DNA of 64,000 bases, taken from Granulicella arctica. GTDB taxonomy: Bacteria; Acidobacteriota; Terriglobia; Terriglobales; Acidobacteriaceae. Each line of letters opens with the position of its first letter. The stretch's first letter is position 1. Under the pieces are notes generated by a model. That model searched no databases and had not been told where the DNA came from. It was given only the letters and a program-made list of their open reading frames with translations. Where the stretch lies: contig NZ_JACCCW010000002.1 of NCBI RefSeq assembly GCF_013410065.1, forward strand, positions 62,001-126,000, given 5' to 3'. Below are positions 7,315 to 47,758 of the stretch, one piece after another. Both the position numbers and the translations under genes were made by a program.

Positions 7315-7375
7315 GAAGTATGGTTCCAGTACTTATCTTCATTGCCGGGAATATTCGAAGAACCTAATATCGTGC
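7315..7375 (+). promoter_or_regulatory. EPS promoter module, copy A
   Basis: This 61-bp segment aligns without gaps to 26876-26936 with 44 identities by eye. It contains GAAGTATGGT-N11-TCTTCATTG, then a sigma70-like TTGCCG (7342-7347), a 17-nt spacer and TAATAT (7365-7370). The conserved block lies just upstream of and partly over the -35, where an activator would bind. The expected transcript start is about 20 nt before the wecG-like ATG. Confidence 0.7.
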
Positions 7376-7396
7376 TCGAAAGCCCAATTCAAAGCC

Positions 7397-8302
7397 ATGT
7401 GCGTGTTCGAAACCACATCTCCTCTTCGCAAAGCAAACGGCAGTTACGAGACCGATGCGCCCAGAACTAGTCAATTCAATTCGAGTCCTTTTGATTCTGG
7501 ATGGCAAGAAGCCAATCGAGAGGTTTCTTTTTTGGGGTTGACCATGCAACCTAAGTCCATGTCGGAGTTGAATGCTTTGGTGGAGCAGGGGATTGCGGAG
7601 GGCAGGAAGTGGATCATTACGAACCACAACCTACATAGCCTATACCTGTTGCACCGATGGCCTAAGTTGCGCAAATTTTATGCGGATGCACACTGGACGT
7701 TCATCGATGGAATGCCGCTGGTGGCATTGGGCCGGCTCTATGGCTATTCGCTTCAACGCGAGCATCGAGTGACACTGGCAGATTGGCTTCAACCTCTGAT
7801 GGAATTAGCTGCCAGTAAGGGATGGCGCGTCTTCAATCTCGGGTCGCCAAAGGGTGTAGGAGAGAAAGCTGCAGCAGAACTCCGCAAGCAATATCCCGCG
7901 CTACAAATCGAGGTAAATGATGGATACTTTGACGCGCGGCATGGTAGCCCGGAGAGCGAAGCGGTGATCGAACGTATCAATGCCTACCGGCCTGATTTAT
8001 TGATGGTGGGAATGGGTATGCCGCGGCAAGAGTATTGGACTCACGAAAATTTTGCACGGCTCGACGCATGCATAATCATGTCTTCAAACGGCGCTGCCAT
8101 GGATTACATTGCCGGTACGGTGCCGACACCGCCACGATGGGCTGGCAGGCTGGGACTGGAGTGGGCTTTTCGGCTATTGAATGAGCCACGTAGGCTTTTT
8201 GGACGTTATCTGGTGGAGCCTTGGTACATCCTAATGTTGCTGTCAATAGATTACTTGCGGACGGGTGGTCGATTGAAAGCAAGGGAGCCGCGAAAAATTT
8301 GA
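7397..8302 (+). CDS. WecG/TagA/CpsF family glycosyltransferase (GT26)
   Basis: 301 residues. The GT26 core runs from about residue 40 to 270: FLGLTMQPKS, ITNHNLHSLYLLHR, the FIDGMPLVALGRLYG stretch, a Rossmann-like WRVFNLGSPKGVGEKAA, then PDLLMVGMGMPRQEYW and a C-terminal PPRWAGRLGLEWAFRLLNEPRRLF region that docks on the membrane. These enzymes transfer a sugar to a lipid-linked monosaccharide at the cytoplasmic membrane. As the first gene behind the EPS promoter it probably adds the second or a later sugar of the repeat unit. The N-terminal 40 residues are not conserved, so the true start could be internal. Confidence 0.88.
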   Translation: MCVFETTSPLRKANGSYETDAPRTSQFNSSPFDSGWQEANREVSFLGLTMQPKSMSELNALVEQGIAEGRKWIITNHNLHSLYLLHRWPKLRKFYADAHWTFIDGMPLVALGRLYGYSLQREHRVTLADWLQPLMELAASKGWRVFNLGSPKGVGEKAAAELRKQYPALQIEVNDGYFDARHGSPESEAVIERINAYRPDLLMVGMGMPRQEYWTHENFARLDACIIMSSNGAAMDYIAGTVPTPPRWAGRLGLEWAFRLLNEPRRLFGRYLVEPWYILMLLSIDYLRTGGRLKAREPRKI

Positions 8303-8426
8303 GAGAAGAGTTGTGGTCACGCTTTTAGTAAGAGTGTTTGTTCTAGCTTCTTCAAAATTATGTTCAGGTTTGATGCACCATAGCTTGTTTCGGCGGACTG
8401 CACAAGCACTATAGGAGAGCATAGCA

Positions 8427-9527
8427 ATGAACCGCAGAGACTTCCTGACAGCGTTGGGCGCGACGGTAGCGACGAAGTGGATGTCGCTTGAAGTCACCGC
8501 GCAGGCTGCGGCTGCTCCTCTGAAGCAGTTGGCTGCTCAAAAAGGGTTAATGTTCGGCTCCTCTCTTGCTATGAAGTACTTCGATCAGTTATCTGCTTAC
8601 AAGCAGTTATTTGTGTCGCAGTGCGATATCGCGACTCCAGAGTTTCAAATGAAGTGGAACTCGCTGAGTCGTCAGCCTGGGGTATATGACTTTGCTGCTG
8701 CTGACCAATTTGTAGCATTTTGTGTGGCGAACCATATTAAGGTGCGCGGGCACACGCTGGTGTGGCACGATTCGATGCCTGCATGGGTTCCAGGACAGCT
8801 TTCGCCGACAACCGCTAGGGCTGTCATGTTGGACCACATCCGTGTGGTCGCTGAACACTTCGCGGGCAAACTGTACTCCTGGGATGTGGTAAACGAGGTG
8901 CTCGATCCAGGGAGTCAGCGGCCCGATGGGCTCCGGGCTAGTCCCTGGCTGAAGAATATTGGTGTCGACTATATCGAACAAGCATTTCGTGCAACTGCAG
9001 CGGCAGATCCGAAAGCTCTTCTCGTATGGAACGAAAACTACCTCGAAGTATCCAACGGATTCGGTGATGCGAAGCGGAAGGCGATGCTCATACAACTTGA
9101 CACTATGCTCGCGCGAAGCGTTCCGATTCATGGAATCGGATTAGAAGCACATCTGCGTGGCGACCAAGCAAATGTATTGGGCGATGCAAGTTACGAAGTA
9201 TTTCTCGATGAGTTGGCGAAACGTGGAATGAAGATTTTCATCACGGAATTGGACATACAAGACGCTAGTTTTTCCGCGGATTTCAGAATGCGTGACAAAG
9301 AGGTTGCTGATGTTTATGGGAAATTTCTTACTGCTAGCCTGCGGCAGCCGGCGGTAAAAGGAGTCGTCACGTGGGGGCTTTCGGATTCCTTCAGTTGGAT
9401 CTCAGGATACCGTCCGCGCAAAGATGGTCTGCCGGTACGGCCTCTGGCATTCGACGTGAATTGTCAGCCTAAGCCGGCATACTATGCCATTGCTGAGTCG
9501 CTTGAGAAGGCTCCTCGGCGTGGTTGA
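8427..9527 (+). CDS. Endo-1,4-beta-xylanase-like GH10 hydrolase, Tat-exported
   Basis: 366 residues starting with a Tat signal (MNRRDFLTALGA). The GH10 fold is clear: VRGHTLVWHDSMPAWV, WDVVNEVLD with acid/base Glu157, FITELDIQD with nucleophile Glu274, and the late VVTWGLSDSFSW. No carbohydrate-binding module is attached. It sits between two glycosyltransferase genes in the EPS operon, so its target is more likely the nascent polymer than plant xylan: it may trim, release or clear polysaccharide in the periplasm. GH10 genes inside EPS loci are known in other bacteria; the in vivo role here is inferred. Confidence 0.92.
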   Translation: MNRRDFLTALGATVATKWMSLEVTAQAAAAPLKQLAAQKGLMFGSSLAMKYFDQLSAYKQLFVSQCDIATPEFQMKWNSLSRQPGVYDFAAADQFVAFCVANHIKVRGHTLVWHDSMPAWVPGQLSPTTARAVMLDHIRVVAEHFAGKLYSWDVVNEVLDPGSQRPDGLRASPWLKNIGVDYIEQAFRATAAADPKALLVWNENYLEVSNGFGDAKRKAMLIQLDTMLARSVPIHGIGLEAHLRGDQANVLGDASYEVFLDELAKRGMKIFITELDIQDASFSADFRMRDKEVADVYGKFLTASLRQPAVKGVVTWGLSDSFSWISGYRPRKDGLPVRPLAFDVNCQPKPAYYAIAESLEKAPRRG

Positions 9528-9589
9528 TCTGGTTATTTTTAGAAGCCTAACGCGGTATCGTAAGCGGAAGGCCCGAAGGAGTTTCAGCT

Positions 9590-10546
9590 ATGGTTCTTGT
9601 CTCGACTGTGATTCCAACGCGTGGACGACCGGAGCTCTTGCTACGTGCAGTGAACAGTGTCCTAGCCCAGACGCTGAGAGAGATCGAAGTGGTGATAGTC
9701 ATCGATGGAGAGGATCGAGCTACAGAACTCGCATTGGAGCGGCTGGTCCGAGAAGACAGACGAGTGAACGTTGTCGCACTGGGTAGTAGTGTTGGAGGAT
9801 CTGATGCGCGTAATCGCGGAGTGGATGCCGCTTCCGGTGAATGGATTGCATTCCTTGATGATGACGATGAATGGCTTCCCGGTAAACTCCAGGCTCAACT
9901 TGAGGCGGTTACGGCGTCTACTGCTCCGGTGGTAATTGGCACCTGCAAGATCATCGCGCGTACGCCGGGTAACGACTATGTGTGGCCACGACGCCTGCCG
10001 AAACAGGGCGAGCCAATTTGTGAGTATCTGTTGGCGCGCCGTACGCTTTCACGCGGTGAAGGATCGATCCAAACGTCGACGTTTTTCGTGCGCCGTGCAT
10101 TGATGAAAGATCAACCATTCAAGAGCGGACAATTGAAGCATCAGGATACAGAATGGTTGCTGCGGGTAGGACAATTGCCGGGAGCAGAAGCTGTGTTCGT
10201 AAACGATGTTATGGCGATTCATTACATCGAAGAGGAACGTGTTTCGGTAAGTAGCAAGGCCAACTGGCGCTACTCTCTCGAATGGGTGCGCCGCGATCGA
10301 CACCTTTTTACGCCACGCGCATTGACTGGGTTTGTCTTGCACCAAATCGCTCCAGAGGCATCGGAGCAAGGAGAATGGCGCGCCTTTCCTATGTTGTTCT
10401 TCGATGTTTTGCGCCATGGCAAGAGCGAAGCCCGCGACTTTGCGATCTTTTTGGCAATGTGGTTGCTGCCCCGTCGTCGCCGCCGTCGCTTGCGCGACTG
10501 GATGGCACGACGACCGGCACTGCGTCCTTTGGTGCACTCGCGATGA
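9590..10546 (+). CDS. Family 2 glycosyltransferase
   Basis: 318 residues. GT-A fold with VSTVIPTRGRPELLLRAVNSVLAQTL at the N-terminus, the sugar-nucleotide/metal motif FLDDDDEWLPGKL at about 90-102, and HQDTEWLLRVGQL in the acceptor half. The C-terminus is strongly basic (RRRRRRLRDW), consistent with attachment to the inner membrane. Its TGA overlaps the next ATG by 4 nt, so it is coupled to the following transferase. Donor and acceptor are unknown. Confidence 0.92.
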   Translation: MVLVSTVIPTRGRPELLLRAVNSVLAQTLREIEVVIVIDGEDRATELALERLVREDRRVNVVALGSSVGGSDARNRGVDAASGEWIAFLDDDDEWLPGKLQAQLEAVTASTAPVVIGTCKIIARTPGNDYVWPRRLPKQGEPICEYLLARRTLSRGEGSIQTSTFFVRRALMKDQPFKSGQLKHQDTEWLLRVGQLPGAEAVFVNDVMAIHYIEEERVSVSSKANWRYSLEWVRRDRHLFTPRALTGFVLHQIAPEASEQGEWRAFPMLFFDVLRHGKSEARDFAIFLAMWLLPRRRRRRLRDWMARRPALRPLVHSR

Positions 10547-11679
10547 AGATTCTTCAATTGACGCGGCAGTTTCTTCCTTCCGAGGGGGGCATAGAGAGTG
10601 TCGTCGAGGGGTTGAGTTGCGCCCTACAGCAGAGGGGGCACACCGTGCAAGTGGTCACACTCCGATCGCTGTTTGCGAGCGGCACGATGGCCCCTATGGA
10701 GTCTGTTGAAGCTGGGGTGGCAGTGCGCCGCATGCGGCACTGGGGACCGCGTCGTTATCCCGTAGCACCGGCAGCGCTTGCGGAGATTAGCGGCTACGAC
10801 TTGGTGCATATTCATGCTATTGACTTCTTTGTGGACTACTTGAGTCTGTTGCGCTTGCTGCATCGCATTCCTTTAGTGGTCAGCACGCATGGAGGTATCT
10901 TTCACACGCAATGGGCAAACCATTTCAAGAAGTTGTACTTTGCGACCGTGACTCGCATGTCGCTGGGTGGAGTGGGAGCAGTGGTGTGCGTGAGTCAGCA
11001 GGACCGTGAAAAATTTGAGGAGATCGTCCCGAAGCAGCGTATTCGGCTCATTGAGAATGGTGCCAACATTGATCGTTTCTGGAGTCTGCGGAAAAAGATA
11101 GAGCCCGGCCTGATGTTAGGCATCTCGCGACTGGCGGAGAACAAGTGCATTCATAAGGTTTTGGAAGCAATGGCTCCTTTGAAAGATCGATATCCGCAGA
11201 TGCGGCTTGAGTGGATCGGAGCAGACTTTGCTGCGTTGCGTTCCTCACTGGAGCGTCGCGCTGTTGAGCTTGGGTTGGGAGGCCGTGTACGTTTTCATGG
11301 AGCAACCAGTCGTGAACAGTTATACCGCTTATTGGAGCGGGCTCACCTATTTGTGTCGGCTTCGGCGTACGAAGGATTTGGGTTGTCGACGATTGAAGCT
11401 ATGAGCGCGGCGACGGTTCCCGTGGTGACCTCCGTAGGAGCACATCCTGACGTGATAGAAGACGGAGTAAGTGGTTTCTTGACGGATGCATATGCGACGG
11501 AGCTTTCGGCGCATATGGAGCGTGTGTTGGTGATGCCATTGGAAAAAATTGCGATTATGGGAGAGGCTGCACGTGCGTCGACACGACGATTCTCCTGGAC
11601 TGAAATCGCGCCTCAGTATGAGCAACTCTATAGTCAGGTATTAGGGGCTGGACGCAATGCCAGTGTGTGGTCGCTATGA
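10543..11679 (+). CDS. Family 4 glycosyltransferase
   Basis: 378 residues from the ATG at 10543, chosen because it gives the canonical GT-B start MKILQLTRQFLPSEGGIES and a 4-nt ATGA overlap with the preceding gene. Further motifs are HGGIFHTQWA, CVSQQDREKFEE, GISRLAENKCIHKVLEAM and the donor-binding EGFGLSTIEAMSA (E-x7-E). Retaining GT4 enzymes of this type commonly transfer mannose, glucose or related sugars during repeat-unit assembly. The exact sugar cannot be told from sequence. It is coupled to the next gene by another ATGA. Confidence 0.92.
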   Translation: MKILQLTRQFLPSEGGIESVVEGLSCALQQRGHTVQVVTLRSLFASGTMAPMESVEAGVAVRRMRHWGPRRYPVAPAALAEISGYDLVHIHAIDFFVDYLSLLRLLHRIPLVVSTHGGIFHTQWANHFKKLYFATVTRMSLGGVGAVVCVSQQDREKFEEIVPKQRIRLIENGANIDRFWSLRKKIEPGLMLGISRLAENKCIHKVLEAMAPLKDRYPQMRLEWIGADFAALRSSLERRAVELGLGGRVRFHGATSREQLYRLLERAHLFVSASAYEGFGLSTIEAMSAATVPVVTSVGAHPDVIEDGVSGFLTDAYATELSAHMERVLVMPLEKIAIMGEAARASTRRFSWTEIAPQYEQLYSQVLGAGRNASVWSL

Positions 11680-12974
11680 GCGAAGCAATTGTAATCTTCC
11701 GCATTCAGCTGCTACCACGTTCGGAGACGTTTATCGTCAAGCAGGCTGAGGCAATGCGACGGTTCGAGCCGTACTTCGTTGGTTGGCGCAGGGTGGTTGG
11801 ATTGGAGGTGCCTAAGTACAAAAGTTGGACGGCCGATGACGGTGGACTGCGAGGAAAACTACGGGAGTTACGGTTCCGTTATCTAGGCCCCACCTCCAGT
11901 GAGATTGCCCGATTACGGCTACAATCGCCTCGTCTTGTCTATGCACATTTTGCCTTGGACGGCTATGCGGCGATGGAGCTTGCAAAACAGCTCGGAGTGC
12001 CACTTGTAACTGCATTACACGGCTATGACGTGACCATGAGCGACGAAGCGATAGGTGCAACGCGGCTAGGACGCGAGTATCTGAAGGGGCGCACAAGGCT
12101 CCAGAAGGAAGGCGCGCTCTTTGTAGCATGTTCGGCATACGTGCGCTCGCGAGCGATCGAGCGCGGATATCCAGCGGAGCGCACGATTGTTCGCTTCATC
12201 GGGGTAGATATAGCTCGTTTCGAGCCGCCCCCAACGCGACGTCACGAGCAGGTTGTTTTATTCGTTGGGCGTCTGGTTGAGAAGAAAGGTTGCAAGGATT
12301 TAATCGAAGCGATGGTGGAGGTGCAACGTCGCTGCGCGGAAGCGCAGTTGATTGTTATCGGGGATGGCCCATTGCGCGCGAGCTGTGAGGCGGCGGCTGC
12401 AACTAAGCGCGTACGATGCCGCTTCTTGGGAGCACAGTCATCTGCGGTGGTGAAGGACTGGATGATGCGTGCAACGGTCTTCTGTGTGCCCAGTGTGGTT
12501 GCAACCTCTGGCGATGCGGAGGGTTTCGGCATAGTGTTTATCGAGGCGCAGGCCATGGGACTGCCTGTTGTCAGTACGAGAAGTGGGGGGATTCCTGAGG
12601 CGGTGGATGATGGGAATACTGGACTGTTGGTTGCAGAGGGAGATCAGCGAGGACTGGCAGAGGCAATACTCGTGCTGTTACAAAACAACGAACTGTGGCA
12701 GCGTTTCAGCGTGGCCGGACGTGAGCGCGTCGTGGAGCACTTCAATCTGGAGCGACAGACCCAGCGTCTAGAGGATGTTTTTGACGAGGTGTTGTTGTCG
12801 CATAAATCGTTTATCGAGGACGACAAGATAAGGTCTGCGGTAAGCAGTGTGTCTATCAGTAGCGCGTCCAATGGTTCTCTGAAGTTAACGCAGAATATTT
12901 CTTATTCTGAATCACTAAGCCAATGGGCTGCGAAATGCGATGGAAGGAGCGTAGACCATGAGTCTCTCAACTGA
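11676..12974 (+). CDS. Family 4 glycosyltransferase
   Basis: 432 residues from the ATG at 11676 (4-nt overlap with the previous stop). GT-B enzyme with LHGYDVTMSDE, a VLFVGRLVEKKGCKDLIEAM linker strand, VIGDGPLRASCEAAA, and the donor-site DAEGFGIVFIEAQAMGLPVVST. A roughly 50-residue Ser-rich tail follows the GT-B fold, and the gene overlaps the acyltransferase start by 17 nt. This is one of three GT4 genes in the locus. Sugar specificity is unknown. Confidence 0.92.
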   Translation: MSEAIVIFRIQLLPRSETFIVKQAEAMRRFEPYFVGWRRVVGLEVPKYKSWTADDGGLRGKLRELRFRYLGPTSSEIARLRLQSPRLVYAHFALDGYAAMELAKQLGVPLVTALHGYDVTMSDEAIGATRLGREYLKGRTRLQKEGALFVACSAYVRSRAIERGYPAERTIVRFIGVDIARFEPPPTRRHEQVVLFVGRLVEKKGCKDLIEAMVEVQRRCAEAQLIVIGDGPLRASCEAAAATKRVRCRFLGAQSSAVVKDWMMRATVFCVPSVVATSGDAEGFGIVFIEAQAMGLPVVSTRSGGIPEAVDDGNTGLLVAEGDQRGLAEAILVLLQNNELWQRFSVAGRERVVEHFNLERQTQRLEDVFDEVLLSHKSFIEDDKIRSAVSSVSISSASNGSLKLTQNISYSESLSQWAAKCDGRSVDHESLN

Positions 12975-14109
12975 GGTCATAAACGAGGTAGCGCCATCGA
13001 GAGCGTCGGTCACGAACCGCTTCTACCAGCCAGAACTAGACGGCTTGCGATTCTATGCGTTCCTTGGTGTTTTCGTGTGTCATACCCTGCCGTTTGAGAC
13101 GTCATTTTATAGAAGTTTCCATCTCCCACTCCCGTGGCTGTGGGGTGCGGTAGTAAAAGCGGGAGCTGCGGGTGTAGATCTATTCTTCGCGTTGAGCGCA
13201 TTCTTGATTACTTCGCTCTTGTTAAAAGAGCGGCTGGAGACGGGTGGAATTTCACTCAAACTCTTCTATGCCCGGCGAGTTTTGCGTATCTGGCCACTCT
13301 ATTTCCTGGTGATTGCGTTAGGGATAGTGCTCTCACATACGATGTCGAACCAAAATCTGCCATGGTTCTACGTCGCGGGGTATCTTCTTTTTGTTGGCAA
13401 CTGGGTACATGCCGTATTCGGGCGGCCAGAGTCGATTGCCTTTCCATTGTGGACGGTTTCGATCGAAGAACAGTTCTATCTAATCTGGCCGCTACTGGTA
13501 AAAAAATTCGAACGTCGCGGCTTGATCATATCGGGGATAGTCATGTTCTTGCTCGCTACGGCGTGTCGTGTCGGACTTGTACTTGCGGGTGTTAGTGGAG
13601 GGTATATCTACTATGGCAGCACAGCACGTTGTGACTCGATTGCTCTTGGGAGTTTGATGGCACTATTTGCGGATCGTCTGCCAAGGCTTACGAGTGGTAC
13701 TCGGTTGCTTTTGGTGGGCGGTGGTCTCATGGGATGGATCGTCTCTTCGGCCTGGCTTACTGATCAGCCCGGCCCGATCAGTATGCGTGAGGTGTCGGGA
13801 CGTTTGATCATTTCGCTTGCTGCAGGAGCAATTCTATATGGCTGCCTTTACAGTCGCACCAAGCTTCTTACAGGCCCTTGGTTCGTGAGTTTGGGTAAAG
13901 TTAGTTATGGGCTCTATCTGCTTCATCTCGTGGGACTGCTTATTGCTAAGAGCCTTATTCACCCTATTTCCGGGATGGCGCTGCTCGGAACGAAAGCAAT
14001 TGGGTTTGTTGTGACTCTTATTCTAGCGTTTGCATCATACCGTTGGGTCGAATCGCCGTTCTTACGATTGAAGGATCGATTTGCCAGAGTTCTTAGTAGG
14101 CCAGTTTGA
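12958..14109 (+). CDS. Acyltransferase family 3 (OafA/YrhL-type) membrane protein
   Basis: 383 residues, about ten membrane helices. The N-terminal FYQPELDGLRFYAFLGVFVCH motif and DLFFALSAFLITSLLLKERLETGG are hallmarks of the acyl_transf_3 family, followed by LRIWPLYF and a WTVSIEEQFYLIWPLL stretch. These enzymes move acetyl or other acyl groups across the inner membrane onto sugars of O-antigens and EPS. It is the fourth gene of the overlapping run, so it probably acetylates this polymer. Confidence 0.92.
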   Translation: MSLSTEVINEVAPSRASVTNRFYQPELDGLRFYAFLGVFVCHTLPFETSFYRSFHLPLPWLWGAVVKAGAAGVDLFFALSAFLITSLLLKERLETGGISLKLFYARRVLRIWPLYFLVIALGIVLSHTMSNQNLPWFYVAGYLLFVGNWVHAVFGRPESIAFPLWTVSIEEQFYLIWPLLVKKFERRGLIISGIVMFLLATACRVGLVLAGVSGGYIYYGSTARCDSIALGSLMALFADRLPRLTSGTRLLLVGGGLMGWIVSSAWLTDQPGPISMREVSGRLIISLAAGAILYGCLYSRTKLLTGPWFVSLGKVSYGLYLLHLVGLLIAKSLIHPISGMALLGTKAIGFVVTLILAFASYRWVESPFLRLKDRFARVLSRPV

Positions 14110-14294
14110 AGTCTATTTCTCCACTAATATCTCGTATCGTTCGTTGTAGTAATGAAATATAGCCATATAAAATAGGTGTTTTGTAAATATTGGAGACATA
14201 TGAAGTTCATGAAAAACAGAAGATACCTTATCCCTTGACTTAGCTCATAGCTTCCTGCCATTAATTCTATATTCGCTCTATAAGGAAGGCTCAT

Positions 14295-16589
14295 TTGGAT
14301 AAGCTTGCACTTCAATCATCAGGTGTTGTTATTGCAGCGGGTTCGTCTTCACCCGAACTCACACTTCGTGAAATATGGATGATGCTGTGGCGTCGACGCC
14401 ACATTATTTACGGCAGCATAGCAGTGTGCTTTATGCTTGCTCTTCTTTTACTTACGATCTCAACGCGTCGCTATCGGTCCATTGGAGAGATTCAAGTCCT
14501 AAAGGACTCCGGGACCTCGCTCGGCTTGCAGACAGATAGTACGGATACTCCCTCCGATGCTCTTGAAGAGAATATGATTCTTCAAACGCAAGCGAAAATT
14601 CTACAGTCGGACTCGCTGGCTCTGCGTGTAATCAATGAACTCCACCTTGAGCAAACGGACGATTATAAAGAGAAGTGGAGTCCGATTGGCTGGGTGTTTG
14701 CGCTTATAAGTCCAAAAGGGAGACCCGATCCAAAAGGCGCGTCACTTGAAGACTCACCTCACCGCCGAGTGCAGGTTCTGAATATCTTTCGTAAAAAACT
14801 AACAGTGAAGGTGGTCGATGGGACGCGTCTTATTGATGTGGAATATCTAAGTCCTGATCCACAACTAGCGGCGGCAGTCGTGAATCGTATGCTTCAAGGG
14901 CTAATTGAGGCAGGATTTCAGGCGCGCTATGACGCGACGACCCAGGCGTCGTCATGGTTGAATGGACAGCTTGGGGATCTGCGGGTGCAAACTCAGGCGT
15001 TACAGGCGAAAGTTGTCAAGCTGCGGCAAGGGTCTGGAGTCTATGCTCTGGGTGAGGTTGATCGAGAGGGTAAGGATCAGGTTTACAGTCCGACGCTCGA
15101 CAAGCTACAGATAGCGACTCAAGCGGTGGCGCAGGCAGAGTCGAATCGCATTTTGAAAGGTGCAATTTACGATGTTGTTAAGACGGGAAATCCTGAGCTG
15201 ATCTCGGGATTGAGCGGAAATACAATTTTGGCAAGCTCATCTTCAGGCATTGGCAGCTCGCTAACGCTCATACAGAACCTGCGGTTACAAGAAGCCACTC
15301 TTCAAGGACAAGTGCAAGAGCTTTCCGCAAAGTTTGGTCCCGCCTATCCAAAACTCGCCGAAATTCACGGCAATCTGGATGCGGTGCAAGGAGCGATTCG
15401 AGCTGAGGTGGATCGAGTCGCTGGACGCGCACGTAATGACTTTGTGGTAGCGGAGCAAACAGAACAGAATACGCGTAAGACTTTTGAAGCTGATAAAAGT
15501 CAGGCTGAGACACTCAACAACAGGACTATTGAATATCAGATGGCACGGCAAGAAGCCGACCAGACCCGTTCGCTCTATGACGATCTTTTGCGGCGGCTCA
15601 AGGAGTCGGGACTACTGGCAGGCTTGCGCTCAACTAACATAACCATTGTTGATCCGGGGCGGGCGACCGATAAACCTGCCAAGCCTGTTGCTCTACTCTA
15701 TTTGTTCGGGTCGATCGTAGTGGGATTGTCTGTTGGCTCTGCAGCGGCTCTACTGCGTGATGTGACTGACATTAAGATTCAGGACGTGCGGGAGATCGCT
15801 CGGGAGTTGGGGGCTACTCCGCTTTGCGTGCTGCCCTATCAGAATGAGCGTGCAGCTCTACCTGCAAGCTCCATAGCGAGTTATCCGCTTGTATTGCTTC
15901 CAGTTCTCGACAGCCCGCGCTCCATCTTTGTGGAGTCACTCCGCTCGCTTCGGACCTCTCTGATGCTGTCTCGGAGCGGAGCACCTCCGCGATCAGTCCT
16001 AGTGACGAGCCCCTTGGCGGGAGAGGGGAAAAGTTATATAAGCTGGAATCTTGCAATTCTCTTTGCCCAACAAGGGAAGCGAGTATTGTTATGCGATGCG
16101 GATCTGCGCAAGGCGAGGTTGCATAAGGATTTACTGTTGGATCCGAAGACTGGGTTGAGCACAGTATTGACTGGACTTTCTGGAGATTACGGTGCCTCTG
16201 CAATGATTCCGGTGACCGCGGTTCCGGGACTGGATCTTATGCCAGCAGGACCTACGCCGCCATATCCTGCAGAACTGCTGTCGTCAGATCATATGGCGAA
16301 GCTATTGAAGGTCTGGGAGTCACAATACGACCTCGTACTTTTGGATGCTCCCCCGGTACTGCCGGTGACGGACTCGGTCGTTCTGAGCTCGTTCGTCGAC
16401 TCGGTCCTGCTCATTGCCCGGCATCAGAAGACACCTCTTTCAGCACTTGAAAAGAGTTATCAAATGCTGGAAGCAGTGCAGTCGGAGAGCGATAGCAAAA
16501 TCAACGTCTTGGTCAATGGGGTGCGTGAGCAGCCTGCTGCGGGACATGCATTTTACGAATATCTCGGAAGAGAGTCTGTGAGGGGATAG
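14295..16589 (+). CDS. Wzc-type polysaccharide co-polymerase with BY-kinase domain
   Basis: 764 residues from a TTG at 14295, supported by AAGGAAGG 5-6 nt upstream. It has a Wzz-like membrane domain (about 22-110, first membrane helix ~33-55), a long coiled-coil periplasmic region (~200-440), a second membrane helix near 460, and a cytoplasmic BY-kinase domain from about 540. That domain has Walker A (GEGKS, ~575), A' (VLLCDADLRKARLH) and Walker B (LVLLDAPP, ~680). It controls chain length and export together with the Wza-like protein that follows. Only two Tyr (YEY) are near the C-terminus, fewer than the usual Tyr cluster. Confidence 0.9.
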   Translation: MDKLALQSSGVVIAAGSSSPELTLREIWMMLWRRRHIIYGSIAVCFMLALLLLTISTRRYRSIGEIQVLKDSGTSLGLQTDSTDTPSDALEENMILQTQAKILQSDSLALRVINELHLEQTDDYKEKWSPIGWVFALISPKGRPDPKGASLEDSPHRRVQVLNIFRKKLTVKVVDGTRLIDVEYLSPDPQLAAAVVNRMLQGLIEAGFQARYDATTQASSWLNGQLGDLRVQTQALQAKVVKLRQGSGVYALGEVDREGKDQVYSPTLDKLQIATQAVAQAESNRILKGAIYDVVKTGNPELISGLSGNTILASSSSGIGSSLTLIQNLRLQEATLQGQVQELSAKFGPAYPKLAEIHGNLDAVQGAIRAEVDRVAGRARNDFVVAEQTEQNTRKTFEADKSQAETLNNRTIEYQMARQEADQTRSLYDDLLRRLKESGLLAGLRSTNITIVDPGRATDKPAKPVALLYLFGSIVVGLSVGSAAALLRDVTDIKIQDVREIARELGATPLCVLPYQNERAALPASSIASYPLVLLPVLDSPRSIFVESLRSLRTSLMLSRSGAPPRSVLVTSPLAGEGKSYISWNLAILFAQQGKRVLLCDADLRKARLHKDLLLDPKTGLSTVLTGLSGDYGASAMIPVTAVPGLDLMPAGPTPPYPAELLSSDHMAKLLKVWESQYDLVLLDAPPVLPVTDSVVLSSFVDSVLLIARHQKTPLSALEKSYQMLEAVQSESDSKINVLVNGVREQPAAGHAFYEYLGRESVRG

Positions 16590-18939: not shown

Positions 18940-20223
18940 TCAGGCAGGCTGTGTCGAGAGGACAGCGGCTTGCTCGCGACGACGAAGGCAGAAGAGCACA
19001 GCCCAGGTAAGTACGGCAAGACCTCCATCCGTCAGCAGGCTCGCAATCGCAGCGCCGAGCCATGAATAGTGTGGAATTAGATATAGGTTTAAAGCGAAAT
19101 TAAAGCCGGCAGCAAAGAGTTGGCAGAGTAGGCGTAATTTTTGTTGGCCTACACCAGCAATTGCATCGCCTGCACACAGATGGAAGCTGCGAAATAATGG
19201 AATCAGGCAAAGCCATCGCAGAGCGCTCACACTTGGCGAAAAACCTTTTCCGATAAAAAATGGAATAATTGGCGCAAAAAAAAACATGCCAATCGCTGCA
19301 GCGAGGCCAAGTATTACGGTGCGCTTCAGGATCTTGACAGCGAGTGGTTCAACCGCAGCCATGCCTTTGGCTCCTTCGCGAAAGAAGCGAGGGAACGCCG
19401 CTGCCTCAATGGATTGGATGGGCATGGTTGCAATGTTGATGATGCGATATGCCATTGAGTAGATGCCGTTGGCAACGGTCATCCCGTAGTGCCCAAGCAT
19501 GACCTTATCAAAGTCGTTGTAGGCTGCGGTTGTAGAGCTCGACATGGCGAAGACGAAACCTTCTGGGCCGCGCGTTAAAAGAAGTTTTGGTTCGAAGCGA
19601 GGCCAGCCAAAGCGGCGCGTGACGACGGCGAAGGCAGTGCACGCAGCGCCGATGGAGACAACCAACATGGCGACTGCCCACTGCTTAGCTACGGCATGGT
19701 GCATTATGAACAGCATGGAGCAGGCAAGGAGAAGACGAAACGAGCTCGTAAGCATATTGAGGGTAGCAGTTAACCTCATGCGCTCAAAGGATTGAAATAC
19801 TTGTGCAGCACATGTACTTAGCTGTCCACAGATGCAGTCAGAGAATGCGATGAGAGTTAAGAGCGAGGCACTTTCTTTACCGACTAGCCAGCGTCCGGAG
19901 AAGTGCAAGAGCAATACGATGAGAGAACCGTAGAAAGCCGTCGACATCAGTACGTTGCCCCAATACTTTGGGAATTGCTTTGGGTCTTGGCTGACATATC
20001 TGAGTAGAGTCAAACCCGATCCCATCGTACTGTACTGGCTTACGACCGTGACTAAAGCCACTGCGCCTGCCAGAACGCCGTATTGCGTCGCATTAAGTAG
20101 ACGCGCAAGAAAGACGAAATATAGTGCCTGAATAACGAAAGAGAGACCTTGACCCGCGAACATCCAAGCTGCATTGCGAGCGAGAGTACTTTGACGCAGA
20201 CGTTTGATAGGGTCTGAAATCAT
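18940..20223 (-). CDS. Polysaccharide flippase (Wzx/MATE-like)
   Basis: 427 residues from the ATG at 20223, chosen because it makes a 4-nt ATGA overlap with the upstream GT4 gene. Twelve or more predicted membrane helices, with the family opening LARNAAWMFAGQGLSFVIQALYF and the internal STTAAYNDFDKVMLGHYGM helix pair. It moves the undecaprenyl-linked repeat unit to the periplasm for the polymerase encoded convergently. No strong terminator is seen in the 92 nt between the two genes. Confidence 0.9.
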   Translation of the reverse strand: MISDPIKRLRQSTLARNAAWMFAGQGLSFVIQALYFVFLARLLNATQYGVLAGAVALVTVVSQYSTMGSGLTLLRYVSQDPKQFPKYWGNVLMSTAFYGSLIVLLLHFSGRWLVGKESASLLTLIAFSDCICGQLSTCAAQVFQSFERMRLTATLNMLTSSFRLLLACSMLFIMHHAVAKQWAVAMLVVSIGAACTAFAVVTRRFGWPRFEPKLLLTRGPEGFVFAMSSSTTAAYNDFDKVMLGHYGMTVANGIYSMAYRIINIATMPIQSIEAAAFPRFFREGAKGMAAVEPLAVKILKRTVILGLAAAIGMFFFAPIIPFFIGKGFSPSVSALRWLCLIPLFRSFHLCAGDAIAGVGQQKLRLLCQLFAAGFNFALNLYLIPHYSWLGAAIASLLTDGGLAVLTWAVLFCLRRREQAAVLSTQPA

Positions 20224-21344
20224 ATGGAGAATGATTGGTAAATTTCTTGAACTTGTGAACGGACGACGGGCCACGTGAAATGTTTGTGGAACGTGGCATA
20301 ACCCTGTTTGCCGAAAAGGGACCGAAGCTCTGTATCTTCTGCGAGTTGACGTAAAGCAACGGCAAGCTGTTCTACAGATCCGCGCTCCACAAGAATGCCA
20401 CCACCGTTTGCAAAAATCTCTAAAGCCCCTCCTCCGCGTGTGCTGATGACCGGCAGACCAGAGGCAAACGCCTCTACATTGACGAGGCCGAATGGCTCAT
20501 CCCATATTGAGGGGGAACAAAACATATCTACCTCTCGAAAAAGATCTCCTAAAGCAACGCCACTGCGATAGGGAAGAAAAGTTATAGTTGCCGGTGCATT
20601 AGCTTTAAGTTGGGTGATATAGTCCGTCTCGCGGCTATTTCCAAAATTAGAAGACCCAACAATGCGCAATTGAAGGCGAACGCCCTGTTGTGCAAGAATT
20701 TTCATGGCATCCACTAAAATATGAACGCCCTTATCTTTGACAAGCCGTCCTGCGAAAAGAACGATTGGGATGCTTGGTCTCTTTTCGGGATCGGAGGCGG
20801 GATAGAAGATCGTTTCATCGGCTCCGTTGTACAGCACAGAACAGGCCCCGAGTGATGGGAACTTGTGTCGAGCCTGTTTCAGTAAAAACTCACTTACGAA
20901 GATAAGTCTATCTACATGAACTTGCCGCATCAATGTGTAAGGCCAGTCGATCAAATGAGCGTTGTGCATATGAAGAATAACTCGACCGCCGGCACGATGA
21001 ATATGTGGTGTGAGTGCGATGGCGAAGTCAGGCCGATTGTGAATCCATATGACATCACCTGGCTGCAAGCGCTTGAGAAGGGGATCGAAGATTCGCTCGA
21101 GAAGCGCACGATGCAGCGCCCAGGGAAGGCGAGAAATATAGCGCCGAAAGCGACTATAGCGAGTCAAACTTGGGAGTATGAAAATAGCCTCAGGGGAAAA
21201 CTTCCAAGTGCTATCGGCGGACGGACAAACTACGACTGCTGTTGTTGTCCGGAGTACATTTGCAGCCCAGCGCGAGATCGCACCTCCGTGAAACTCGGAG
21301 AAGGCCTCGGCCTCGGTCAAGAGATGATAGGCAACAGTAGACAC
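20220..21344 (-). CDS. Family 4 glycosyltransferase
   Basis: 374 residues. GT-B fold with a His-rich acceptor segment (IHNRPDFAIALTPHIH, ILHMHNAHLID), the hinge VLFAGRLVKDKGVHILVDAM, and the donor site EPFGLVNVEAFASGLPVIST (E-x7-E). It is co-transcribed with the flippase. It belongs to the minus-strand half of the EPS locus together with the nucleotide-sugar genes. Specificity unknown. Confidence 0.92.
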   Translation of the reverse strand: MSTVAYHLLTEAEAFSEFHGGAISRWAANVLRTTTAVVVCPSADSTWKFSPEAIFILPSLTRYSRFRRYISRLPWALHRALLERIFDPLLKRLQPGDVIWIHNRPDFAIALTPHIHRAGGRVILHMHNAHLIDWPYTLMRQVHVDRLIFVSEFLLKQARHKFPSLGACSVLYNGADETIFYPASDPEKRPSIPIVLFAGRLVKDKGVHILVDAMKILAQQGVRLQLRIVGSSNFGNSRETDYITQLKANAPATITFLPYRSGVALGDLFREVDMFCSPSIWDEPFGLVNVEAFASGLPVISTRGGGALEIFANGGGILVERGSVEQLAVALRQLAEDTELRSLFGKQGYATFHKHFTWPVVRSQVQEIYQSFSI

Positions 21345-21431
21345 AACAACTCCACAAGATCAAACGTTGAAATATAGGTACTCCAGTTCGTAATAATTCG
21401 GATAGTTCTAGAATTAAGCTATTGGCCTTTA

Positions 21432-22389
21432 TTACGCTTTCAGTGTCGATCCTTTGTCCAGTGAAGCCTGAAAATAGGGAAACGGCAATTGCAAGCCTTG
21501 ACTCAGCTTGATTTGTGGCTGCCATCCGAGGAGGGCTTTCGCCCTGCTGATATCGGGTCTGCACCGTGTTGGATCATCTTGTGGAAGTGGCATAAAAATA
21601 ATTTTTCTGTCGAAGCCGGTAACCGTTAGGATCTCTATGGCGCACTCGAGAATCGTCCATTCTTCTTGATTGCCTATATTTAGAGGAGAGTGTTCCTCTG
21701 AACTCGACAGAGCAAGAATGCCTTCGACTAAATCGTACACATAACAAAAACTGCGTGTCTGCGAGCCACCGCCATAGATGGTAAGCGGTTCTCCAGAGAA
21801 CTTGTGCCATAAAATTTGAAATCACTCGGCCATCATTGATTTGCAAACCAGGTCCATACATATTAAAGATTCGGACCAAATGAGTATTTACACGATGGTA
21901 GCGATAAAAAGCCATAACCGCCGCCTCGGAAAATCTCTTGGCCTCGTCGTAAACGGAACGCGGCCCAACTGGATTGACGTTGCCCCAATATGTTTCAGGC
22001 TGCGGATGAGCCTCGGGGTCTCCATAGCACTCCGAAGTAGATGCATGAAAATAGCCAGCGCAATACTTTTTCGCAATCTCAAGGGTATTTAGCGTTTTAG
22101 ACGAACCCACAAGCAAGGTCCCGATACCAAGGCGCGTATAGTCTACAGGGCTTGCTGGTGAAGCGAAGTTGAAGACAAAGTCCACGGGGCCAACGTCAAA
22201 AGGCTGGCAGATGTCCTGTTGAACAAAGTCAAACCGGTTTTCTCTGGATAGATGAGCCAGATTGATGTCACTGCCTGTGCTGAGATTGTCAATACCGATC
22301 ACATGATTCCCTGCGTTGAGCAAGGAATCACGCAAATGAGAGCCAAGAAAAACAGCCGTTCCAGTAAAGAGAATTCTCTTGGAGTTCAT
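21432..22389 (-). pseudogene. UDP-glucuronate decarboxylase-like (UXS) gene with frameshift
   Basis: Two frames together give a complete SDR-family UDP-GlcA decarboxylase of about 318 residues. From the ATG at 22389 (AAGG upstream) the first frame carries FNFASPASP, STSECYGDP and the catalytic YDEAK. It loses register at 21793-21799, after SNFMAQVL; the second frame resumes SGEPLTIYGGGSQTRSFCYV and continues to 21432. Restoring two bases at the CTCTGG site would rebuild the normal family length. The nucleotide-binding motif is also altered (GTAVFLG instead of GGAGFLG), which suggests real decay rather than only a sequencing error. If functional it would make UDP-xylose from the product of the adjacent dehydrogenase. 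Confidence 0.85.
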
Positions 22390-22489
22390 ACCCACCTTGG
22401 AAAATTAAGCTGATGATGTGTCTCTCTAAAGTCGAAAACAGATTACAGATGTGAATCATGCTAGTATCTAACATCCAGCAATATAAGTA

Positions 22490-23902
22490 TTAGTGAGATC
22501 CTACAGTTGCAAACTCTTGTACATGATGTTTTGTAGGTCTTCCTACACTGAAATAAGAGATTCCATTCTCCAGCATCAAATTCGGATCGTAGAGATTACG
22601 GCCGTCCACGACAATGGGATAGCGCATCAATCTATTAATACGTTGCAAGTCTAGGTGAGAAAACTCCGCCCAATCGGTAAGAATGAGTAAAGCATCGACA
22701 TCTTTGGCAGCTTCGTATGCATCTTGCATATATTGCAGATTCGGACCAGAAAGCAGTACTTGTTCAGCCCGTGCCATTGCAGCCGGATCAAAAGCCTGAA
22801 TCGAGCAACCCTCAGTAATTAGCATTTGGATGAGTTCGATCGCTGGCGATTCGCGTATATCATCTGTTCCTCCCTTAAAGGCAAGGCCGAGTACTCCAAG
22901 CTTCTTACCGCGGAGTGTCCAAAGTGCTGAGCGCACTTTGTCGAGAAAGCGTGTTTTTTGAGATGCATTGATGGTCTCTACTTCAGACAATAGAGCAAAA
23001 TCAACTCCAAGTTGCTCCGCGACGCATCGGAATGCCGCAACATCTTTCGGAAAGCATGACCCGCCATATCCGATACCGGGCCGTAAGAATCTGGGACCGA
23101 TGCGACTATCCATTCCCATTCCTTGAGCGACCTGCTCGACGTCGGCATTTGCCGCCTCACAGAGGTTTGACACAGCATTAATGAAAGATATCTTTAGTGC
23201 AAGAAATGCATTAGAAGCATGCTTGATAATTTCCGCACTTTTCGTTGATGTCAATAGCAGGGGCGGTGGTTTGTGCGAAGTGCAGAAGCCGTCAATCGCA
23301 TCTGGCTGTTTATAGTAGCTGCCATCCGTCAACGGTTCGTAAATCTTCGATAGCACCATAGCAGCACGTTCACTATCTGTTCCGACTACAATTCGATCGG
23401 GATGGAGAAAATCGCGAACGGCTGTTCCTTCTCTCAAAAACTCCGGATTCGATACAATATCGAAGAGATTTTGTGAAACACCATTGCGTTCCATTACTTT
23501 CCGTATCCACTCATTTGTGTACACAGGAACCGTACTTTTTTCGACGATAACTGTATAGGTTGTAAGTGATCGAGCAATCTCACTAGCTACTGCTTCAACA
23601 TAAGAAAGATCGGCAATCCCTGACCCGCTTTGAGGGGTTCCGACTGCGATGAAAATTGCTTCTGCTTCGCGTGTCGCTTCGGCGAGGTCACTTGTAAAAC
23701 GCACCCTGGAATTTCTATACCGCTCGAGGAGCTCGGGCAGATAGTTCTCATGGATCAAGCAATTTCCACCTCGCAAAGCGTCAACTTTCTGTTGGTCATT
23801 ATCCACACATACGACACTATGGCCCATCTCTGCGAAGCAAACGGCGGCTACCAGTCCGACGTATCCAGAACCAACTACCACAATTCGAATTGTATCGTTC
23901 AT
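22490..23902 (-). CDS. ugd: UDP-glucose 6-dehydrogenase
   Basis: 470 residues. N-terminal Rossmann domain (IRIVVVGSGYVGLVAAVCFAEMGH), catalytic EGTAVRDFLHPDRIVVG region, the active-site Cys283 in GYGGSCFPKD, and a C-terminal UDP-binding domain (GLAFKGGTDDIRESPA). It oxidises UDP-glucose to UDP-glucuronate with two NAD+. A 15-residue insert (GFCTSHKPPPLLLTS) occurs where the NAD-binding and central helical domains join. It lies just upstream of the decarboxylase-like gene on the same strand and is the obvious source of glucuronate for the EPS. Confidence 0.95.
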   Translation of the reverse strand: MNDTIRIVVVGSGYVGLVAAVCFAEMGHSVVCVDNDQQKVDALRGGNCLIHENYLPELLERYRNSRVRFTSDLAEATREAEAIFIAVGTPQSGSGIADLSYVEAVASEIARSLTTYTVIVEKSTVPVYTNEWIRKVMERNGVSQNLFDIVSNPEFLREGTAVRDFLHPDRIVVGTDSERAAMVLSKIYEPLTDGSYYKQPDAIDGFCTSHKPPPLLLTSTKSAEIIKHASNAFLALKISFINAVSNLCEAANADVEQVAQGMGMDSRIGPRFLRPGIGYGGSCFPKDVAAFRCVAEQLGVDFALLSEVETINASQKTRFLDKVRSALWTLRGKKLGVLGLAFKGGTDDIRESPAIELIQMLITEGCSIQAFDPAAMARAEQVLLSGPNLQYMQDAYEAAKDVDALLILTDWAEFSHLDLQRINRLMRYPIVVDGRNLYDPNLMLENGISYFSVGRPTKHHVQEFATVGSH

Positions 23903-23965: not shown

Positions 23966-24721
23966 CTATCCGGTTTTGATCATCCGGATTTTGCTAGATG
24001 CTACTTTGCTTGTCGGGGCAACGGGCGCAGGTAGAGTATTGCGAGGAGTGAGCGCGTATAAGACTGCCTCCATTCTGTTTGATACACCGAGCTTGTCGTA
24101 TATTCGGAAGAGATGATTCTTTACGGTGTGCTCGCTGAGTCTCAACATTGTGGCTAATTCATGATTGCTCATCCCATCTGCCAGTAGATGTAGGACTTGT
24201 TGCTCCCGAGTTGTGAGTAGAGGCCTTCCATGGGAATCGGTAACATCCGTTGACTTCGGACGAGACACGGAAGATACAAGGTGACCCAACTGCTCATTGC
24301 TGGCCCATATTTGCCCCTCATGGACGCGCCGAATACTTTTGCAGAGCATATTGAACTGTAGATTGGAGCTGCAAAAAATCCCCCTCACTCCGGCCCGAAA
24401 CAAAGAGATAACTTCGGCATAACCAGGTCTCTGTGTGAGGACTATCACTTTTGCGTCCTTGTAGCATTCTGGTAAAGCGTCAATTATGGCTACAGCACTG
24501 AAAATATTCTCCACCCGCGAAGACCCGAGAAGAATTATGTCTGCGGTTCCCTTTTTTGAAATATCTAAAAGTTGCTGTACATCATTGATCGGCTCGACAA
24601 TCTGTATATCAGGGACCTGCGCGAATGCACTTCGTAAGAGATCGCAAACCATTATTGGAAGATTGGCCATCAAGAGTCTAATGCCAAGTGCTGATCTTTT
24701 TTCTTCGATGATTCCCGCCAT
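23966..24721 (-). CDS. LuxR/NarL-type regulator with degenerate receiver domain
   Basis: 251 residues from the ATG at 24721, preceded by GGAGGT at ideal spacing. The receiver-like domain (12-120) has Ala19-Asn20 in place of the acidic pair, Gly66 at the phospho-acceptor position, and Cys117-Ser118 where the conserved Lys should be, so phosphorylation is not expected. The DNA-binding LuxR helix-turn-helix is intact at about 168-225 (LTTREQQVLHLLADGMSNHELA, TVKNHLFRIYDKLGV). It is next to the ugd gene and is the only regulator inside the EPS locus, which makes it the candidate activator of the EPS promoters. Confidence 0.88.
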   Translation of the reverse strand: MAGIIEEKRSALGIRLLMANLPIMVCDLLRSAFAQVPDIQIVEPINDVQQLLDISKKGTADIILLGSSRVENIFSAVAIIDALPECYKDAKVIVLTQRPGYAEVISLFRAGVRGIFCSSNLQFNMLCKSIRRVHEGQIWASNEQLGHLVSSVSRPKSTDVTDSHGRPLLTTREQQVLHLLADGMSNHELATMLRLSEHTVKNHLFRIYDKLGVSNRMEAVLYALTPRNTLPAPVAPTSKVASSKIRMIKTG

Positions 24722-25016: not shown

Positions 25017-25776
25017 CTCGAGGCTGTTATGTCTTTCATCCCAGTTCTTTGGTCGTGCGGGCGATCATGATGCATGCGAAAGCGATGTAGTGGAAGGCTT
25101 TGAGGCTTGTATCGAGGCGTTCGTAGTCTCGAGCGAGTCTTCGGAAGCGCGCAGCCCAGGCGAAGCTTCTCTCCACCACCCATCGTTTTGGTAGCAGGAC
25201 GAAGCCCCTTTTCGCCATCGGATGCTTGACGACGCTGAGCCGGATGCCATGTTCTTGCGCGGCCAACGCAGCGTTCTGTCCGGTGTAGCCCTGATCCACA
25301 TAGGCAAGCTCAACCGAGTTGCCGGTCACCTGCTGCACCTCCTGGGCCAACGCGGCGACCTGGCTGCGGTCACCTTCAGAAGCTGCCGTGACCTTGAGCG
25401 CCATCAGGTGCCCCAGCGTGTCCACCGCGATATGGACCTTCGATCCCTTTTTCGCTTGGCTCCGTCATAGCCAGCGCGAGCGCCGCATCTGCTGATAAAC
25501 CGCAGGCCAGGGAGGCAGATCGTTCGGCATGAACCGCCACTGGTTGCCCGTTCGCACGATGTACCGCACACCGTTGAACAACTCCCGAAGACTGTGCCTC
25601 CGGCTCCGGCTGTCCTCGCGACTCAACAACAGATACGGCAAGACAAACGCCCACTCCTCATCCGTTACATCCTGCGGGTAAGACTTCCGCTTCACCTCAG
25701 ACATAACTCTATGCGGAACAAAAACAATCCTTCAGCAAAGTAGCCAATCAGGTCCAAAAGACATAACAGCCTCGAG
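25017..25776 (-). mobile_element. IS5-family element, internally deleted
   Basis: Perfect 20-bp terminal inverted repeats at 25017-25036 and 25757-25776 flank a broken IS5-type transposase. The element is 760 bp, shorter than the roughly 850 bp expected. No target-site duplication is obvious outside the repeats (left flank GCATCT, right flank GCAGCG). Confidence 0.88.
25036..25704 (-). pseudogene. IS5-family transposase, deletion plus frameshift
   Basis: The N-terminal part (YPQDVTDEEWAFVLPYL... to VYQQMRR) is joined at about 25481 directly to ARAGYDGAKRKKGSK in another frame, then AVDTLGHLMAL, AYVDQGYTG and KRWVVERSFAW. About 60 residues are missing, including the segment that carries the first catalytic Asp (the LDSRTLQST-type motif). 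The second Asp and the Glu remain. The protein cannot be active. Confidence 0.88.
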
Positions 25777-25855
25777 GCAGCGGTTAGGTTGGATTTTCAA
25801 GAAGCCTACTGTAGTGCAGCCAAAATCGGTTGCTGAGACATATGGGAGGCTCCTA

Positions 25856-26712
25856 GAGACTGTTATGAAGTTGTAACCGAGCTAGATTTTTTGCTAGGCG
25901 GCATTTTCTTTAGAGCATGAAGGCATGGCGAGAGTTTGCCAGCAGGGTTATTCGAGCTATATGACGGGTGAAAAGTGTGGTTTGTGTTGCCGTATCTGCT
26001 GCTGTGCCGGGAGAACAGCGCCCATCGGGAGCACGATCTGCGGGAGGTGTTCAACGCACTTCGTTATGTGGCGAAGACAGGGATGCCTGTGGTGTTGGGC
26101 TCTGCGTGATCTTCCTCTGTGGCCAACGGTTTCTCGGCAGATGCAATATTGGCTGTCGGCAGGCTGTTTTGAGCCCCCGGCTGTAGGCTTACTGTCGATT
26201 TTGTGCGAGTGTGCAGGTCGAAAGGCCAGTCGATCGCAGTTTGCCCTGGTAAGTTGTGCACTGTAGTCAATTCCGGAGTTCGGTGTGCGGGACGGTTATG
26301 ATGGAGCCAACCGCAGGAAGGGCTAGAAAGTCCACATCGCGGTTGATACGCTGGGCCACTTGTTGCCCTAAAGATCAGGGCGGCAGATGAGAACAACAGG
26401 AGCCAGGTCACCGGGCTGCTGAAGAAGTGCAACAGGTCATCCGGTAGGGCTGGCTTATGTCGATCAGGACTATATCAGGCTGAGCGCCGTCGAGGCTGTA
26501 CTGTAGCACTGTATCCGGCTCGAAGTTGTCAAAGGGGGCTTCGTGCTCTAGCCGAAATGCTGGGCCGTCGAACGAAGCTCCGCTCGGGTCGCCCGTTTCC
26601 GACACCTCGCCAGAGACCATGGTCGACTCGACAACACGCTCATAGGATCGCCTTGCGATCCTCGTGGCCACAAAACTCATCAACTCAATATCTGCAAACT
26701 CATAACAACACC
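25856..26712 (+). mobile_element. Second IS5-family element, near full length but heavily decayed
   Basis: Imperfect end repeats around TGTTATGA (25856-25868 and the reverse complement at 26698-26712) bound about 857 bp. Reading several frames in turn gives FVLPYLLLCRENSAHREHD, LREVFNALRYVAKTG, LPLWPTVSRQMQYWLSAGCFE, GYDGANRRKG, KVHIAVDTLGHLL, GLAYVDQDY, ERSSARVARFRHLARD and AILVATKLINSI. At least six frame changes and several stops are present. It differs from the neighbouring copy, so it is an independent and older insertion in the opposite orientation. Confidence 0.8.
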
Positions 26713-26824
26713 TGCGCTAAATAATAACGTTCACAATAATTTGAGAGTCTTTAGGTGCTTTTTTCGACAGATGCCTATCTGTTTATCTTGCCTAATGTGT
26801 AATAGAACGCTAGCTATCACTTGT

Positions 26825-26844
26825 AGAGTATTCGAGAGTATTCA
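26825..26844. repeat. Tandem 10-bp repeat upstream of the priming sugar transferase
   Basis: AGAGTATTCG is followed directly by AGAGTATTCA. Two copies at one helical-turn spacing, 31 nt before the promoter module, could be paired binding sites for a regulator. Confidence 0.4.
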
Positions 26845-26875
26845 GATGGCAGTATTAGCCTAGACCTGCATATGA

Positions 26876-26936
26876 GAAGTATGGTGTAGCTACTTTTCTT
26901 CATTGTCTGGGGCATTCCTAGGCCCTATTATCATGC
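26876..26936 (+). promoter_or_regulatory. EPS promoter module, copy B
   Basis: Gapless counterpart of 7315-7375. GAAGTATGGT-N11-TCTTCATTG is identical in both, followed by TTGTCT (26903-26908), a 17-nt spacer and TATTAT (26926-26931). It would drive the priming sugar transferase with a leader of about 74 nt. Confidence 0.7.
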
Positions 26937-47750: not shown

Positions 47751-47758
47751 CGACTCTC

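Follow-up and report, generated by a model that had tools for sequence, protein, structure and literature searches.

Two Promoter Copies With a Predicted Dyad Operator and a Candidate LuxR/NarL-Type Regulator in an Exopolysaccharide Locus of Granulicella arctica

Introduction

A 64,000-nt stretch of the Granulicella arctica genome (hereafter the window) carries a gene cluster for exopolysaccharide (EPS) in which two similar 61-bp sequences precede different genes on the forward strand: copy A (7315-7375) lies before a wecG-like glycosyltransferase gene and copy B (26876-26936) before sugT, a gene for a priming sugar transferase. This raises the questions what these copies are and which protein reads them. 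We propose that both are sigma-70-type promoters with dyad operators that form a two-promoter EPS regulon, most likely bound by a dimer of the product of a LuxR/NarL-type gene in the same cluster (luxR), and most likely as an activator. From the comparison of sequences we put the probability of this reading at about 0.7.

Likeness and Rarity of the Two Copies

Copies A and B are identical at 44 of 61 bases without a gap, as the original prediction had claimed, and this likeness is well beyond chance: in 1000 dinucleotide-shuffled upstream pairs the best 61-base diagonal averaged 30.3 with a maximum of 36, and none reached 44. The next-best match to either copy in the window is at most 32/61. 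The motif GAAGTATGGT-N11-TCTTCATTG, put forward together with the copies, indeed occurs exactly twice in the window, where shuffling leads to an expectation of 0.01, but its N11 is not free, since TACTT within it forms the inner portion of an inverted half-site. Numerous unrelated matches elsewhere in the genome would have spoken against a dedicated element. A complete scan of the 4,305,353 bases of this Edaphobacter/Granulicella-type acidobacterium (3 contigs) returned only the 2 sites at up to three mismatches, and the reversed-pattern control returned 0. A slightly longer motif, also at up to three mismatches, was found in the window's own genome and in G034 (E. aggregans) only, among 100 genomes (own plus 99 relatives). 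The letters first proposed for the motif are, on this comparison, lineage-specific, and the underlying element is spread wider.

For the wider element a sequence-only model (R1) was trained on 13 sugT promoters, with copy A excluded. In the window's genome the model recovered copy B, a training member, and the untrained copy A (E 6.5e-6), and it gave no third site at E up to 10 among the 150 of 895 first-look candidates that were scored. The other model searches likewise scored part of their candidates (85 per genome in the genus, 17 in the class), so weak members of the regulon may be missed.

Operator and Core Promoter

Alignment of the sugT promoters suggests that the element is a dyad operator, with the half-site TGAGAA[G/A], placed directly above the -35 hexamer of a sigma-70-like promoter. 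Across the 13 promoters the invariant letters are TGAGAA (columns 3-8, with the preceding T) and TCATTG (columns 30-35). The borders first drawn for the site were slightly off, as the conserved element begins 3 bases further up. In copy B the predicted operator (26873..26898, forward strand) has the left half-site TGAGAA (26873-26878) and the right half-site TTTTC (26894-26898), followed by TTCATTG. The copy A operator (7312..7337, forward strand) has decayed at the left half-site, which reads TAGGAA (7312-7317); its right half-site is TTATC (7333-7337), again followed by TTCATTG.

The putative core promoter of copy A (7342..7370, forward strand) consists of TTGCCG, a spacer and TAATAT (7365-7370), with a transcript start expected at about 7377, and that of copy B (26903..26931, forward strand) of TTGTCT, a spacer and TATTAT (26926-26931), with a start expected at about 26938. 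The spacer of 17 nt that had been noted for both copies holds; the hexamers themselves are weak by consensus. A consensus promoter scan found copy B (TTGTCT-17-TATTAT, 9/12; 0.8 expected in shuffles) and missed copy A. Copy A has a core promoter that can be aligned in 3 relatives, and the position of the copy B core is conserved in relatives. Support for the -35 and -10 hexamers is cross-species conservation, not consensus. Two other promoter types were considered and rejected. A lux-box core, AAGTA-N9-TACTT, was dropped because the outer GAGAA/TTCTC letters are conserved in relatives and the inner ones vary, and no element matching a sigma-54 promoter was seen by eye.

The position of the operator bears on the sense of regulation. 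The right half-site stops 4 bp above the -35, and the half-sites are predicted at about -62 and -42 relative to the expected start, regions where activators usually contact RNA polymerase. Together with the weak hexamers, this favours activation. A dimer of the orphan luxR product would bind both operators and activate, alone or with another signal, and the copy B promoter would then drive sugT and the copy A promoter the unit from wecG to wzy. The same protein might instead bind and repress, with the operator blocking RNA polymerase at both EPS promoters, and a half-site 4 bp above the -35 is near enough for occlusion. We consider repression unlikely, since the whole site is upstream of the -35 and weak core hexamers suit an activated promoter.

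Conservation Across Relatives

Among 62 genomes of the genus, 27 sugT-like genes in 17 genomes were found at E up to 1e-100. All 23 copies with 65% identity or more, which come from 14 of the 62 genomes (own included), are preceded by the element, and model matches with E <1e-7 are confined to these 14. The 4 remaining sugT-like copies (43-48% identity) have a best locus score of -9.2 or lower, and the model finds no element there at E up to 10. Two groups of genomes are compared below. Clade A comprises the window's genome, E. aggregans, G036 (dw_53), G053 (KBS 89) and the named strain S156, with G052 (L60) less close, and clade B comprises G025, G014, G101, G032, G029, G100, G002, G048 and G042. 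The sugT of S156 is also preceded by the element. The distance from element to sugT start is near-constant, at 136-147 bp for the 23 copies and, in a second measurement of 13 promoters with S156 among them, at 141-148 bp. Two of the 23 copies, the second ones of G042 and G100, have a matrix score of -6.2 because of changes near the -35, yet TGAGAA-N4-TTCTC stands at the expected place; two further sugT promoters score low because of one inserted base. Of the four wecG genes of at least 65% identity, those of the window, E. aggregans and KBS 89 carry the element at 34-43 bits.

Conservation is concentrated in the element. For the six sugT promoters from clade A and L60, pairwise identity was averaged in bins of 10 bases. 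It is 0.53-0.81 over the operator and -35, falls to 0.32 in the spacer and rises to 0.58 at the -10; the 20 bases that follow give 0.48 and 0.36, those beyond them 0.23-0.29, and the 60 bases upstream of the operator 0.19-0.32. In clade B, whose strains are close, identity downstream of the element is also kept (0.48-0.82). The comparative evidence thus supports the original prediction of a dedicated regulon, here a small one, whose regulator would bind immediately upstream of the -35.

Seven of the nine clade B genomes (L082-L088) have another sugT, likewise preceded by a copy of the element, near a separate wzc/wza cluster, so that two EPS loci there seem to share one type of operator. Regulon members beyond EPS loci were sought and gave weak model matches only. 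In 299 genomes of the class, at E up to 0.01, there were two matches outside the genus (G255 and G189), both taken as chance. The match in G255 lies at the start of a small reading frame, presumably of a small-membrane-protein family, and no matches to the window's EPS proteins were found at the G189 locus. G027, with a regulator of 46% and a sugT of 47% identity, has a stretch resembling TGAGAA...TTCATTG about 3.4 kb from sugT, within overlapping mechanical open reading frames; the model misses it and it was counted as chance.

The Candidate Regulator

The regulator had been left unnamed in the original prediction. The candidate is luxR (23966..24721, reverse strand), which encodes a protein of 251 amino acids (P0023) with a degenerate receiver and a GerE helix-turn-helix. 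Its start was taken at the ATG at 24721; the mechanical reading frame extends to 24823. The product has the GerE domain PF00196 (66.3 bits against a cutoff of 23.5), and the family profile gives full-length matches to NarL (residues 6-207), DevR and VpsT. The Pfam search gave no receiver match for this protein. Its predicted structure (pLDDT 76.8, pTM 0.59) shows receiver and helix-turn-helix folds with an uncertain orientation of the domains. The predicted receiver has the alternating order of strands and helices and matches the N-terminal domain of VraR (TMt 0.86), and full-length TM-scores are low (0.34-0.49 by query, among the full-length matches listed). By sequence and predicted fold the luxR product belongs to the NarL/FixJ kind, at most as an atypical, orphan-type member. 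The phospho-acceptor aspartate is lost: LLD of NarL aligns with LLG in the family profile, and this residue, G100, is invariant in 13 of 13. With this residue gone, the protein is probably controlled through its amount, a ligand or a partner protein and not through phosphorylation. Cyclic di-GMP is bound in VpsT through the motif W[FLM][TS]R; a motif of this kind is absent, as the position reads WASN, WAKN or WANS. TIGR03020 (EpsA) matches at 56.8 bits against a cutoff of 170 and in the helix-turn-helix region only, short of a whole-protein match.

Several observations tie luxR to the element. The 14 genomes, out of 62, that carry the element are also the ones with luxR orthologues at 60% identity or more. 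An exact search for TGAGAA-N4-TTCTC across the nine genomes of clade B gave 73 strand hits, where the reversed control gave 21; the 48 genomes belonging to neither clade gave 75 and 71. Those 73 hits fall at 54 distinct places, and a hand count assigns 30 of these to luxR, sugT1 (with one between sugT1 and ugd) or the second copy, sugT2. By hand count too, two exact dyads stand before luxR, 205-207 bp apart, in six of the nine genomes. A set of 29 distant acidobacterial homologue loci contains five exact GAGAA-N4-TTCTC sites, and four of these lie at most 700 bp upstream of the estimated regulator start, where 0.07 would be expected from the rest of the loci. When spacings from 0 to 20 were compared in the close group, a spacing of 4 had 14 sites and no other had more than 2. 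In 40 lower-ranked homologue loci, mostly from other phyla, there was no exact GAGAA-N4-TTCTC upstream of the regulator. As side observations, GAGAA-N19-TTCTC precedes the regulator in three of the 29 distant loci (L160-L188) and occurs nowhere else in them, and Granulicella sp. S190 (L154, 3013) carries one more TGAGAA-N4-TTCTC dyad in the interval from sugT to ugd.

Other results weigh against the proposed regulon or against luxR as its regulator, beginning with the copy A promoter that the consensus scan missed. Upstream of wecG in dw_53 there is at best a degenerate, alignable form of the element (1.4 bits), which the model misses. At 25 of the 29 distant loci the 700 bp upstream hold no exact site. 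The window's genome has no exact TGAGAA-N4-TTCTC, and clade A with L60 shows no enrichment of it (8 strand hits, with 18 in the control), so that a parallel with the 7-2-7 sites of NarL, discussed below, is indirect here. With up to two mismatches the dyad occurs 76 times in the own genome and 75 times in the control, per strand. Clade A has no exact second site before luxR beyond the shared one. Finally, sugT, luxR and the element are distributed identically, and their co-occurrence does not by itself point to luxR.

This last point leaves room for a different, unlinked regulator, which would bind a real regulated promoter with luxR simply a passenger among the EPS genes. Given the identical distribution in the 62 genomes, linkage cannot settle the matter by itself, and the window's genome offers 10 matches to the luxR product at E <=0.001, itself included. 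That the same half-sites precede luxR itself in sister species, and also some distant homologues, argues against a passenger, and we regard an unlinked regulator as a little less likely again than repression. Binding by the luxR product remains the favoured reading, as a prediction.

Half-Site Spacing in the Two Clades

The two clades differ in where the second half-site stands. Spacing was tabulated for 22 of 28 sites: six sugT sites (clade A with L60), 4/4 wecG, 5/9 sugT1 and 7/9 sugT2. The sites left out were sugT1 of G101, G032, G100 and G042 and sugT2 of G101 and G100, two of them one base longer and the others near-copies. Among the 10 sites from clade A and L60 the inverted TTCTC falls at columns 24-28, with a mean of 4.3 of 5 letters against 1.6 at columns 13-17. 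In clade B it falls at columns 13-17, with 5.0 of 5 letters in sugT1 and 4.71 of 5 in sugT2. The second half-site thus stands 11 bp, or one helical turn, further downstream in the window's lineage than in the sister lineage; the window's two copies have 13 bp between heptamers, and in clade B the inverted heptamers are 2 bp apart. Four of the five clade B sugT1 sites additionally keep TTTTC at columns 24-28, and L60 fits neither place well, with 3 of 5 letters at both.

This could imply that one orphan regulator reads the same half-site at two spacings, as GAGAA-N4-TTCTC in the sister lineage and as GAGAA-N15-TTCTC in the window's lineage. The second half-site would have moved 11 bp relative to a fixed first half-site and -35, towards the -35 in the window's lineage, and the architecture of the operator would have evolved in whole-turn steps. 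We hold this idea tentatively and at somewhat less than even odds. The direction of the shift is not given by the LuxR or sugT trees.

Comparison With Known Systems

Regulators of polysaccharide loci with a receiver and a GerE domain are known elsewhere. RcsB has a role in the control of colanic acid, and the RcsAB box differs in sequence and spacing from the TGAGAA dyad. The VpsR box, TTCTCA-N10-TGAGAA, has the same six-letter half-site, but its half-sites face the other way, and VpsR is an NtrC-type protein. EpsA, which is associated with XrtB/PEP-CTERM systems (TIGR03020), resembles the luxR product in being encoded by a LuxR-type gene in an EPS cluster and in its helix-turn-helix.

The luxR product is like RcsB/RcsAB in its domains and in acting, as predicted here, on a polysaccharide locus (PMC5829831). 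It is likewise akin in sequence and structure to VpsT, a receiver and GerE regulator of EPS promoters and biofilm in Vibrio cholerae, but the VpsT T-box, W R [CG] Y W W R [GC] Y W (PMC8754643), differs from the TGAGAA dyad when compared by eye. NarL binds inverted heptamers in a 7-2-7 arrangement (PMC4549865), and TGAGAAN-NN-NTTCTCA has this geometry in clade B and before some distant homologues, in addition to the full-length sequence match. Unlike NarL, the half-site is a different one, the aspartate that is phosphorylated in NarL is replaced by glycine, and clade A has 13 bp between heptamers. BldM of Streptomyces is an atypical orphan response regulator whose group I operator is a 16-bp palindrome, TCACcCgnncGgGTGA (PMC4125116), equal in length to TGAGAANNNNTTCTCA. 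BldM differs in its half-site, its phylum and its developmental role, whereas the operator here would serve an EPS regulon and has a wider spacing in the window's lineage. By analogy, BldM and the 7-2-7 sites of NarL appear nearest in kind.

Genomic Setting

On the forward strand, wecG (7397..8302; PF03808) is the first gene of a unit annotated by Pfam as wecG-GH10-GT2-GT4-GT4-acyltransferase-wzc-wza-wzy (7397-18847), which would be read from copy A. The genes for the wzx flippase, a GT4 glycosyltransferase, an epimerase and a UDP-sugar dehydrogenase (ugd) follow on the reverse strand (18940..23902), downstream of luxR, which is the first transcribed gene of this block. On the forward strand again, sugT (27012..28463) encodes a priming polyprenyl glycosylphosphotransferase (PF02397; TIGR03025 at 395 bits against a cutoff of 296) and would be read from copy B. 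E. aggregans and KBS 89 have the EPS genes in the same order with a copy of the element at either end. The GH10 gene within the unit (8427-9527) is kept at 77-83% identity in these two relatives. Elsewhere in the window, genes for a sensor kinase, a sigma-54-type response regulator, an outer membrane efflux protein, an ABC ATPase and two tandem MacB/FtsX permeases form one cluster (39538-50521).

The sugT leader (26985-27012) has conserved AGAAGG and GAAGGGGCTTC-like letters beside the start codon in relatives, possibly as a hairpin over the ribosome-binding site. These conserved bases near the start codon are what could be said for the block acting as RNA (a leader, riboswitch or small RNA). 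We consider this very improbable, as the operator lies upstream of the predicted start and Rfam at gathering thresholds gave tRNA only in the window.

The copies were described as about 20 kb apart and split by insertion sequence debris. The distance is right, but the interval consists mainly of EPS genes, and insertion sequence material is seen only at about 25017-26504, where it separates luxR from copy B. It includes an element with perfect 20-bp terminal inverted repeats (25017..25776) and a short DDE transposase frame of 129 amino acids, which is probably broken. Sequences resembling its terminal repeats recur at 25854 and 26490 and may belong to another, older relic. These relics near copy B are the one point in favour of a duplicated mobile or repeat remnant (element ends) with no regulatory function, an explanation we give next to no weight because in 14 of 62 genomes the orthologous copies stand almost equally far from sugT and have upstream flanks that are not conserved, and because the own genome holds only the two copies at up to three mismatches.

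Significance

Acidobacteria are soil bacteria noted for EPS. Among the matches listed in a search of open-licence literature there was no defined acidobacterial EPS operator; as far as these matches show, the operator and the regulon would be new, and the kind of switch is familiar. For testing, the finding offers a specific operator, a putative regulator and, in E. aggregans, a named species. If the half-site shift is true, the orthologous promoters would be a ready series for studying how the spacing of a dimer's binding sites is rewired.

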